59,891 bases of DNA from Clostridiales bacterium (GTDB lineage: Bacteria; Bacillota; Clostridia; Christensenellales; Pumilibacteraceae): positions 5,237 to 65,127 of the forward strand of contig JAFLVH010000003.1 in NCBI GenBank assembly GCA_022508365.1, in the 5' to 3' direction. The notes beneath the pieces were generated by a model. That model saw only the letters and a program-made list of their open reading frames with translations. It did not search any database and had not been told where the DNA came from. The position numbers were made by a program, and so were the translations under genes. Shown here in pieces: positions 39,330-45,270 of this stretch (within the stretch, counting starts at the first letter, position 1; every line of letters begins with the position of its first letter).

Positions 39330-41940
<2,611 letters not shown>

Positions 41941-41948
<8 letters not shown>

Positions 41949-43794
41949 GGGCACCCTTCAAAAAATACAGTGAAAACTCGTCTACAGCTTCGTCTATTCT
42001 TTTCTCGTCATTTGCCGTTACCTTTCCGCCACGGGCAATTTTTTCGGAAATGTCAAGACAATTTATGTCGAAGTATTTTAAAAACTTATCCTTAAATTCC
42101 GATATGCGTTCTAACGGAATATTCTTCAAAAGATCTTTGGACGTCAAATACAACAGCACAACTTGATGCTCTTCCCTCATAGGCACGTGGACGTCCTGTT
42201 TGATAACTTCCGTCATGCGCTTGCCCTTTTCCAGCACTCGAGACGTGGATTCGTCAAGTTCCGCGCCGAACCCCGCAAACACAGACAGCTCGCGGTATTG
42301 CGACAGATCCAGCCTGAGCTTGCCGGACACCTTGCGCATGGCGTTGCTTTGTGCGCTTCCGCCAACGCGCGACACAGACAATCCGACATTAATAGCAGGC
42401 CGAATACCTGCGTTAAACAAATCGCTTTCCAAAAAGATTTGTCCGTCGGTAATGGATATTATATTGGTGGGAATATATGCGGAAATATCGCCGGCAAGCG
42501 TCTCCACTATGGGAAGCGCCGTCATAGATCCGCCGCCAAGCTCCGGACTGAGCCGAGCAGCGCGCTCAAGTAGACGCGAATGAAGATAGAATATATCGCC
42601 GGGATATGCCTCTCTGCCCGGCGGACGCTTAAGCAATAAGCTCATAGCTCTGTATGCAACGGCGTGCTTGGATAAATCGTCGTAAACGATGAGAACGTCC
42701 TTTCCGGCGTACATAAACTCTTCGGCTATGGCGCAGCCCGCATACGGCGCTATATATTGCAGCGGCGCGCTGTCCCTTGCCGTTGCGCTGACTATTACGG
42801 TATAATCCATTGCGCCGTGCTCGGTAAGTGTGCCGACTATGTTTGACACCGTGGAGGATTTTTGCCCGATGGCAACGTAAACACAAATCACACCCTTGCC
42901 CTTTTGATTGAGTATGGTGTCCACAGCAATAGATGATTTGCCTGTCTGTCTGTCGCCGATAATAAGCTCGCGCTGACCGCGACCTATGGGTATCATGGAG
43001 TCAACCGCCAAAATACCCGTCATCATCGGTTTGTTTACTTTATCTCTGTCCTTAATGGGCGGAGCTGCCGCTTCGATTGCGCGGTACTTATCGGGCACAA
43101 ACGCGCCCAAGCCGTCGATTGGCTTGCCCATGGGATTTACCACTCGCCCCAAAAGCCTCTCGCCGACGGGCACGGAAACGATTCGACCCGTTGTTTTAAC
43201 TACCATGCGCGCCGAAACCTTGTCATCGTCGTCAAGCACTATCGCGCCCACGCCGTCCTCTGACAAGCTTAAAACAATCGCCTGCGTGCCGTTCTCTATT
43301 TCCAGCATTTCGCCGTATTCGGCGTTGGACAAACCCGAACACATTATTACGCCGTCGCCGCAAAATTCCACACTGCCTGCCTGACGCGGCGTAAAAGCTC
43401 TTTTGTACCGATTTACAGTACGAAAAAGCTCCCTGTCGGTGTTAGTTCTTATATGCTCTGCGGAATCACTATCGGGTGTGGGAACCGAATCCATCTCCCC
43501 CGAAGGCGCAGATTTTTCTTTTGTGCTTTTTCTACGCCTCTTGGGTGTAGAAGCTTCCAAATAGTTTTCGCTGTGCCGAAGATCGCTGTTTATATTATCT
43601 ATCTGCGAGCGCAGTGTGCCGTCGTAATATTTATCACCGTCAACTACAAGCACACCGCCTATAAGCTCTTTGTCTATAGTATAGACAAACTCTACGTCCT
43701 CTTTAGGATGCTTTGCGCAAAAGATTTTTTGGATTTTATTTTTTTGATCGACCGAAAGCTCTGCCGCAGACGAAACTTGAATGACTACGCTCAT
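41941..43794 (-). CDS. atpA: Fused ATP synthase delta (C-terminal half) and alpha subunit
   Basis: 617 residues, about 110 longer than a normal alpha. Residues 1-75 match the C-terminal (OSCP) half of delta: SSAAELSVDQKNKIQKI, IDKELIGGVLVVDGD and DGTLRSQIDN align to E. coli delta ISAAALSEQQL, IDKSVMAGVIIRAGD and DGSVRGRLER. A basic/Ser-Pro linker (76-112) follows, then alpha from about 113, with Walker A GDRQTGKS at 280-287 and the AQYREL region. There is no separate atpH, and the delta N-terminal domain is absent. Met101 (ATG 43494-43492, after GGGGGAG) would give a 517-residue alpha. TGATG overlap with atpF; overlaps atpG. Confidence 0.93.
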
Positions 43795-44312
43795 CAGTCA
43801 TTCTCCCAATCGGACAAAACCTGCTCGATAAGCTCGTTATTATCGGTTTCCGTTATCTCGCGTTCCAACAGCTTTTGAACAACCTTAACGGCAAGCGTGT
43901 TGACGCTGTCGCGGTACTCGCCTTTAAGCTGTTCCCTTTGCGTTGCGGACTCCTTTTTTGCGGCGTCAACAATGCTTTTGGCCTGTTCCTGCGCTTCGGA
44001 GATAATGGCGTCCGCTTGTGCCTGCGCCGCCTCTGCCGCAGATGCGGCAATACGCGCGTTTTCCAGCTTTAGCTCTTCCATCTTTTTGTTGTATTCCGCG
44101 TCTCTGGCATCGCTTTCCGCTTTTAGCTTTTCGTTTTCGGCATACACTTCGTCCAGGCTTTCGCGCTTTTTTCCTAGCATTTTTTTGACGGGCTTGTACA
44201 GCAAAAAGATTATTGCAACAAGCAATAACAAAAAGTTGACAACATAAAAAAGCATGGACTTCCAATCAAGCCCGAATACTTCGAGTATGTTTTCACAGAG
44301 TAATTGCGTCAT
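43794..44312 (-). CDS. atpF: ATP synthase b subunit
   Basis: 172-residue stator subunit: short periplasmic N-terminus, one membrane helix (about 20-38, FYVVNFLLLLVAIIFLLY), then a long charged coiled coil to the end (KKMLGKKRESLDEVYAENEK, then AEAAQAQADAIISEAQEQ). I start at ATG 44312; upstream in-frame codons lie over atpE and give no sensible protein. Its stop shares a base with the start of the delta-alpha fusion. Its C-terminus should dock to the OSCP domain now carried by alpha. Confidence 0.93.
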   Translation of the reverse strand: MTQLLCENILEVFGLDWKSMLFYVVNFLLLLVAIIFLLYKPVKKMLGKKRESLDEVYAENEKLKAESDARDAEYNKKMEELKLENARIAASAAEAAQAQADAIISEAQEQAKSIVDAAKKESATQREQLKGEYRDSVNTLAVKVVQKLLEREITETDNNELIEQVLSDWEND

Positions 44313-44594: not shown

Positions 44595-45263
44595 CTATTC
44601 TATAGCCTCGTTAATAAAGTTCATAGAAAGGAACATGAATATATACGCCTGCATAAGCGCGTGAAAAAGCGTAAACAGCGGATCGAGCACCACAGGCAAA
44701 ATGTTTTTTAGCGCAGTCTGATACACGATATCCATGATAAGATAGCCCGAAAACACGCTACCGAATAGCCTGAGCGCCATGGAAAACGGTACAACGCAGT
44801 CGGTTACAAGCGGAATGATTGCGCCGTAGTGCGTAAGCCGCCTTGTGCGCTTTTTCATAAACCCGATGATAAAAATCGCAAAAAATGTTATCATGCCGAG
44901 AATGATATTGCAGTTTAAATCTGACATCGGCGACCGCAATCCAAACAGCTCTATCAATATCCCAAACATAATAAACGCCGAGCATCCGAAGTAAATAGCG
45001 CCGACCGCCCCGGCGTAATTTTCAGTCATATCTCTTGAATTTTTGTCGAATAACCCAACCGACCACTCCACAAGCATGCGAAATCCCGACGTATGCTTTA
45101 AGTCGGCATTCCAACGCGGAACAAAGACCACGCGCACCACAACGGCAAACAATATTAAAAATACCGTAACTACCATGGCGGAAAACATGGTCACGGTAAT
45201 GTCAAAGCTGCCTATTGAAAAAAGCACCTTAGGTGCAATAGTGGGTAAATGCTCAATATTCAT
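44595..45263 (-). CDS. atpB: ATP synthase a subunit
   Basis: About 222-residue membrane stator carrying the half-channels. The essential Arg is in [13 protein letters not shown] and the helix-5 Gln in [13 protein letters not shown]; the usual Asn after LRLFG is Ser. Two Met codons are adjacent (45266 and 45263). I take the second, because the promoter -10 ends only four bases before the first, so transcripts should begin at about the second. First gene of atpBEF-(HA)-GDC. No Shine-Dalgarno. Confidence 0.93.
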
Positions 45264-45270
45264 CATGCCT

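Follow-up and report, generated by a model that had tools for sequence, protein, structure and literature searches.

A natural fusion of the C-terminal half of delta with the alpha subunit of an F-type ATP synthase, and the repeated loss of the delta N-terminal domain among its relatives

How many peripheral stalks can an F-type ATP synthase carry when every copy of its alpha subunit brings along its own half of delta? The question is raised by an operon from a Clostridiales bacterium, encoded in a window of 59,891 nucleotides (the whole stretch of DNA that was analysed), for which an earlier note had proposed that the alpha subunit carries the C-terminal, b-binding half of delta and that no separate atpH accompanies it. 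The proposal holds for the gene itself, since both parts lie in one frame: PF00213 (delta/OSCP) matches residues 3-72 and TIGR00962 (atpA) residues 125-611, the latter with 712.6 bits for a cut-off of 484.45. The delta match, with 51.4 bits (cut-off 22.3; E 1.8e-13), covers profile positions 103-172 of 172, and as it begins only at position 103, the N-terminal domain of delta is indeed missing, as had been claimed. This delta part aligns with that of PDB 9jc1 chain I and also with that of 6n2y. After it come a variable linker and the alpha N-terminal helix segment (helical by its alignment position), which in the window genus has not been replaced by the delta half but kept behind the linker, and finally the alpha core with its beta-barrel, nucleotide-binding and C-terminal domains (Table 1). 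The ATG of the fusion gene shares one base with the stop codon of atpF (TGATG).

Table 1. Coordinates of the fusion gene, its parts and the remaining genes of the operon in the window
Feature	Position	Strand	Basis or remark
delta-C-alpha fusion gene (atpH C-half + atpA), 617 aa	41941..43794	minus	ATG at 43794
delta C-terminal (OSCP, b-binding) domain, residues 3-72	43579..43788	minus	PF00213
variable K/R-rich linker, residues 73-111	43462..43578	minus	25% median identity within genus
alpha N-terminal helix segment, retained, residues 112-138	43381..43461	minus	56% median identity within genus
alpha core, residues 139-617 + stop	41941..43380	minus	PF02874, PF00006, PF00306; TIGR00962
atpB, subunit a	44595..45266	minus	PF00119
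atpE, subunit c, 85 aa	44321..44578	minus	PF00137
atpF, subunit b (start picked by eye at the methionine at 44312, giving about 172 aa)	43794..44312	minus	PF00430, E 4.5e-17
atpG, gamma	41112..41954	minus	PF00231
atpD, beta	39698..41128	minus	TIGR01039, 748.5 bits
atpC, epsilon	39330..39701	minus	PF02823

The gene order read in the earlier note was confirmed on the minus strand (atpB, atpE, atpF, delta-C-alpha, atpG, atpD, atpC), so that subunits a, b, c, alpha, beta, gamma and epsilon are all encoded in one operon, with a single atpB and a single atpF. When the whole genome, which is 91.8% complete, was searched with PF00213 (E<=10), the fusion was the single match; no second OSCP/delta, and therefore neither a separate atpH nor a full-length one elsewhere, was found, and atpA gave likewise one match (E<=1e-60). 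At the position where the Na+ motif of subunit c has a glutamine (Q), the window genus has a methionine (M). By the rule given in the part of PMC11738941 drawn on here, this would be a proton enzyme. The window subunit c (85 aa) is also unlike that of the loci L087, L088, L104-L106, L109, L110, L122, L132 and L134, where frames of 124-179 residues include a long N-terminal leader-like extension. Elsewhere in the window genome, A- and B-like subunits of an A/V-type ATPase are encoded (L285:6020-9138), and the best match to RnfC in that genome reaches 36.2 bits for a cut-off of 245.95, with nothing above it, for which reason the idea that Rnf drives a low proton-motive force was rejected.

Could the fusion be an artefact, in which a frameshift or a misjoin has merged two neighbouring genes and deleted the delta N-domain? 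The window genome is a draft in 81 contigs, but the identical in-frame fusion recurs in 19 of 20 genomes sampled from the genus, its own among them, and in many further genera and collections, so an assembly error, which the earlier note had itself named as a danger, is contradicted by the relatives, and an artefact of annotation or assembly is exceedingly improbable. In the one exception, G008 (78% complete), alpha itself went unmatched. Of the 19, three (G007, G013 and G015) show extra OSCP matches, each under the family cut-off. The N-terminal parts, inspected in 18 of the 19 fused members (all except G006), have the same layout throughout, that is, delta-C, variable linker, retained alpha N-terminal helix segment and alpha. 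Across these 18 members (153 pairs) the median amino acid identity is 64% in the delta half, 25% in the linker, 56% in the helix segment and 81% in the alpha core, with pN/pS of 0.33, 0.69, 0.42 and 0.17, respectively; the ratios are rough because pS (0.68-0.74) is near saturation. This pattern indicates that selection acts on the delta half, and to a much smaller degree on the linker.

The behaviour of such an architecture has been studied in an engineered enzyme by Ueno et al. (2025). According to the parts of their paper used here (PMC12229609), the delta subunit of Bacillus PS3 was stripped of residues 2-104 and the remainder was joined to alpha, which resulted in an enzyme with up to three peripheral stalks and one a-subunit for each of them, an H+/ATP ratio of 5.8 against 3.0 and an equilibrium proton-motive force lowered by roughly one half (68 instead of 133 mV at a Q of 2.5). 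Triple-stalk molecules were few in cryo-EM, ATP-driven pumping was reduced and some particles had a single stalk, fitting the wild type. In the same parts, all ATP synthases characterised so far are given one a-subunit per complex, the restriction to one stalk is attributed to the delta N-domain on the threefold axis, and a natural fusion of the delta and alpha genes without this domain is named for Acidaminococcus fermentans and for the UniProt entries G4Q3K6 and A0A1I2C5T3, all of which resemble the window fusion by that description. The earlier note knew of no description of the fusion and left its stoichiometry as an open puzzle. On both points it has to be corrected from the same text (PMC12229609): the architecture is in print, engineered and, in A. 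fermentans, natural, and the puzzle has an answer, in that the delta N-domain limits F1 to one stalk and that up to three stalks and a-subunits were found experimentally in its absence. Its idea that a covalent link takes over the grip of the N-domain is consistent with the engineered enzyme as described there. The window enzyme is, then, a new natural member of a printed architecture. What is new here is that loss of the delta N-domain is both convergent and widespread, and that a triple fusion opens the idea of natural multi-stalk enzymes to a direct test.

The likeness between both enzymes can be followed in PDB 9jc1 chain I, which we infer from the name of the molecule and from its 580 aa to be the construct of Ueno et al. 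Its match to the window protein covers delta at 9-72 (E 4.7e-5) and alpha at 125-611 (E 4.5e-179), in identical order. As in the engineered enzyme, the delta N-domain is gone, delta-C sits on the alpha N-terminus and no separate delta was found; unlike it, the window fusion is natural, and by alignment it has about 34 residues more between delta-C and the alpha core (the delta match ends and the alpha match starts at 72 and 125 in the window, at 73 and 92 in 9jc1_I). As regards epsilon, Pfam recognises in the window subunit the N-terminal beta-sandwich domain alone and no C-terminal domain, and the engineered PS3 enzyme is also without the latter, by design.

Other systems offer partial parallels. 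In the mycobacterial b-delta chain delta is joined to b, and one copy per complex is expected. This chain, so named in PDB 7jg5 (chain d; see also PMC5709465, in part), is also an F-ATPase delta fusion, but in the window delta-C is on alpha and atpF is separate, so the distinction between the two drawn in the earlier note is borne out; b and delta-C meet on one chain only in triple-fusion relatives, alpha included. N-type ATPases, in which delta is absent or fused with b and the gene order is beta-epsilon-XX-a-c-b-alpha-gamma (from the part of PMC11738941 drawn on), share with the window the lack of a separate full delta, but the order a-c-b-delta/alpha-gamma-beta-epsilon of the window is not their beta-epsilon-first order. 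Membership in the N-type was rejected, the window alpha having 587.3 bits against the alt_F1F0 alpha family (TIGR03324, cut-off 750.5) and 712.6 against ordinary atpA. With ordinary F-type ATP synthases the window enzyme shares the other subunits in one operon, but it differs from them in that no separate full-length delta (OSCP) was found. No alpha-delta fusion is described in the portions of PMC5709465, PMC5706428 and PMC11738941 that were covered. In keyword searches of open-licence papers no description was recognised of b-delta-C-alpha chains or of repeated origins, nor of separate delta-C genes, for which the search terms were general ones.

Is this architecture confined to the genus? 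A delta without its N-domain is common in the window order and class and occurs also outside the class. An OSCP match (E<=0.001) was found in 187 of 396 genomes of the order; of the 187, 33 have a strong, full-length best match (E below 1e-30, from profile position 1-3) and 154 a weak one (E no better than 7.9e-18), which among the matches listed is C-terminal. In about 12 genomes of the order the match extends upstream across a stop codon. The C-half is located in a frame of about 560-800 residues (fused) or in one of about 71-136 residues directly upstream of alpha (separate). A profile of delta-C plus alpha was matched by 236 of 391 genomes of the class (E<=1e-15), and at least 47 have both parts in one stop-free frame, a count that includes G498, which ends at a contig edge, and that does not tell full-length delta fusions apart. 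At the level of the phylum the profile was matched by 342 of 398 genomes, with both parts in one stop-free frame in at least 21 (including G982, which ends at a contig edge), 16 being outside the class. A scan of named genomes gave, in the best 80 of 591 candidates, 16 delta-alpha fusions (10 delta-C-alpha, three b-delta-C-alpha and three full delta-alpha), all with MAG, uncultured or Candidatus labels. The survey of related genomes that the earlier note had proposed returns a fusion present in nearly all sampled members of the genus, widespread in the order and class, and found beyond the latter.

For the comparison of architectures a delta profile was built from 43 canonical deltas, on which full deltas start as a rule at positions 1-16 and N-domain-less ones at 96-123, with the exceptions of the fused L127 (from 33), of L125, L135 and L138 (59-74), of the weakly matched L112 and of the frame-broken L093. 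The 184 loci considered (G067 counted twice and G300 with two operons) consist of 89 canonical, 63 delta-C-alpha, 15 separate delta-C, six b-delta-C-alpha, three full delta-alpha, two fused tandem delta-C and one separate tandem delta-C, with five left unassigned; 44 of the 55 loci L230-L284 were classified. Some classes were set by hand, namely separate delta-C for L176_G020, L182_G033, L186_G042 and L223_G271, tandem separate delta-C for L224_G167, and canonical for L093, whose delta is split over two frames. L135, L138 and L125 (a Doudnabacteria bin and two other bins), entered as canonical, have short deltas in frames of 133-140 residues, a further instance in which the delta N-domain is partly trimmed.

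The most elaborate form is the b-delta-C-alpha triple fusion (L210, L211, L219, L095, L096 and L140), with open frames of 753-791 residues, and of 746 and 750 residues in G318 and G368. In all six inspected loci (three scanned with Pfam and three by eye) a separate b'-like gene lies immediately upstream. By Pfam, one chain comprises ATP-synt_B, the OSCP C-half and alpha in L095, L140 and G326; ATP-synt_B is matched at 5-128 with 42.6 bits in L095, at 6-125 with 29.4 bits in L140 and with 24.0 bits, under the cut-off of 28, in G326, and the upstream b-type gene scores 67.7, 54.5 and 27.8 bits in these three, respectively. Five of the 396 genomes of the order have a triple fusion (G231, G300, G318, G326 and G368), with a completeness of 91-94%, the only triple-fusion genomes for which this value is known. 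In seven of the eight triple-fusion genomes checked (G326, G231, G318, G368 and those of L095, L096 and L140) there is one atpA (E<=1e-60), and since this single alpha gene is the triple fusion, each alpha should bear a membrane anchor unless the chain is cut. The exception, G300, has a second, ordinary operon with an unfused alpha; a second, unfused alpha is also present in the genomes of L117 and L127, two of the three full-length delta-alpha fusions (the other being L067), and a fused enzyme can therefore be an extra one.

Duplications are found on both sides of the contact between delta and b. L214 and L215 have two tandem delta-C domains on alpha together with a duplicated C-tail of the b subunit, and the separate frame of L224 (G167), of 136 residues, consists of two tandem delta-C domains. 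In G272 and G282, the two genomes with two delta-C copies in the fusion, the duplicated C-terminal segments of b have local scores of 57 and 69, which none of 2000 shuffles equalled in either genome, in a post hoc test where the cut between the copies was placed at the motif. Out of ten relatives with a single delta-C, for which a looser pattern of the b-tail motif was used than for G272 and G282, seven have one copy, three have none (among them G026, with a long upstream frame of 264 residues) and none has two. The paired duplication ties the fused delta-C to b, as would be expected of delta-C domains that each take a b tail of their own.

Has the N-domain been lost once or repeatedly? Two alpha trees were built, one with 162 rows, which leaves out 13 of the 18 genus rows, L230, L226, L240 and L268 (duplicate or cut) and L069, L078, L102, L111 and L124 (no delta call), and one with a hand-picked subset of 60 rows. 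On both of them the N-domain-less enzymes form three supported groups, with canonical ones in between. Group I, with the window order and two other families, has an SH-aLRT of 98 (162 rows) and bootstrap/SH-aLRT values of 99/97 (60 rows); group II, of Oscillibacter-, Mogibacterium- and Geddesella-labelled MAGs, has 99 and 100/98, and adjoins canonical Anaerovorax and Hungatella as well as the full delta-alpha fusions L117 and L127; group III, that of the triple fusions, has 99 and 100/99. G271, whose class was set by hand, is a further separate N-domain-less case, and the triple-fusion and tandem forms belong to other clades than that of the window. On the 60-row tree, with G271 omitted, a single clade of groups I and II was rejected (p-AU 0.00022), as was a single origin of all three (p-AU 5.8e-6), the AU test presuming a group named in advance and the group being defined here by domain content. 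The minimum number of changes is six for three states (canonical, N-domain-less and full fused) and 11 for fused versus separate (162-row tree). The delta N-domain has thus been lost independently several times, in at least three alpha clades. The trees suggest that in group II the fusion came first and the loss of the N-domain second, and that in group I the loss came first, because separate delta-C genes are numerous there and a full-delta fusion is not seen; neither order is proved, since fission is possible.

What would these features mean for the enzyme at work? On the grounds of its domain content, and with somewhat better than even confidence, we take the window enzyme to be a natural F-type ATP synthase of the delta-delta-N-alpha kind, most likely with peripheral stalks and a-subunits in more than one copy each, and with a lower gear. 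Each alpha would carry its own stalk-binding half of delta, and with the N-domain gone, which in ordinary enzymes lies on the threefold axis of F1 and limits them to one stalk, b2-a units could bind at each of the three alphas. More stalks and a-subunits would entail more protons per ATP, and the higher H+/ATP would allow synthesis at a low proton-motive force and, in reverse, the pumping of more protons per ATP against a small gradient. We infer this by extending to the window enzyme the behaviour of the engineered one (multiple stalks, multiple a-subunits and doubled H+/ATP), and the benefit of a multi-stalk enzyme to the cell is likewise deduced.

The same genes could nonetheless encode a single-stalk enzyme with spare anchors, in which one of the three delta-C domains would hold a b2-a unit and two would stay empty, with a and b at ordinary levels, and in which the fusion would be an assembly convenience or a neutral simplification. 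The single atpB and single atpF in ordinary gene order would fit this, as would the single-stalk particles that the engineered enzyme gave and that fitted the wild type (PMC12229609, in the parts used). Moreover, full-length delta-alpha fusions exist, so the two genes can fuse without any multi-stalk rationale, and the loss of the N-domain could simply have followed the fusion. We consider this reading unlikely, albeit deserving of serious weight, given that precisely the stalk-limiting domain has been lost repeatedly and independently, and that b-delta-C-alpha relatives with one alpha gene should bear three b anchors as long as the chain stays whole. Yet another possibility is that part of the alpha lacks the delta half, through internal initiation or through proteolysis within the linker, so that F1 would carry one delta-C. 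The linker of the window genus, long, variable and rich in K and R, would lend itself to this, but it is almost missing in G054. Furthermore, in a scan of 74 rows (G067 being present twice) linkers were not enriched in in-frame start-like codons with respect to alpha bodies; such codons are rarer there (106 in 3061 codons against 2085 in 29454), and so are those with a Shine-Dalgarno match of at least five bases (seven against 138). In the linker stretch scanned in the window, two codons are start-like and in frame (a TTG and an ATG), and a Shine-Dalgarno match is absent from both. The test is a weak one, and the absence of a match indecisive, because in just 37 of 65 fused frames does a start codon located at or before delta have a match of at least five bases, and the fusion's own start in the window has one of four. 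All in all, we regard a mixture of alphas as quite improbable.

Returning to the reading with more than one stalk, it may extend well beyond the window, and we see an even chance that F-type ATP synthases with more than one stalk form a natural class that is widespread in Bacillota and often met in gut metagenomes, with at least three independent origins by different routes (a separate delta-C; a full delta-alpha fusion followed by loss of the N-domain; b-delta-C-alpha). On this reading the enzyme of the triple-fusion lineage would of necessity have three stalks, with a b/b' pair and a covalent anchor on each alpha, and all these organisms would run their ATP synthase in a very low gear so as to live on a small proton-motive force. 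The natural fusions, above all b-delta-C-alpha beside a single alpha gene, make the number of a-subunits decidable from one purified enzyme. If these enzymes are multi-stalk, the proton cost of ATP would be an evolvable trait, set by stalk number and c-ring size, and many anaerobic bacteria would operate in a bioenergetic range so far unmeasured.
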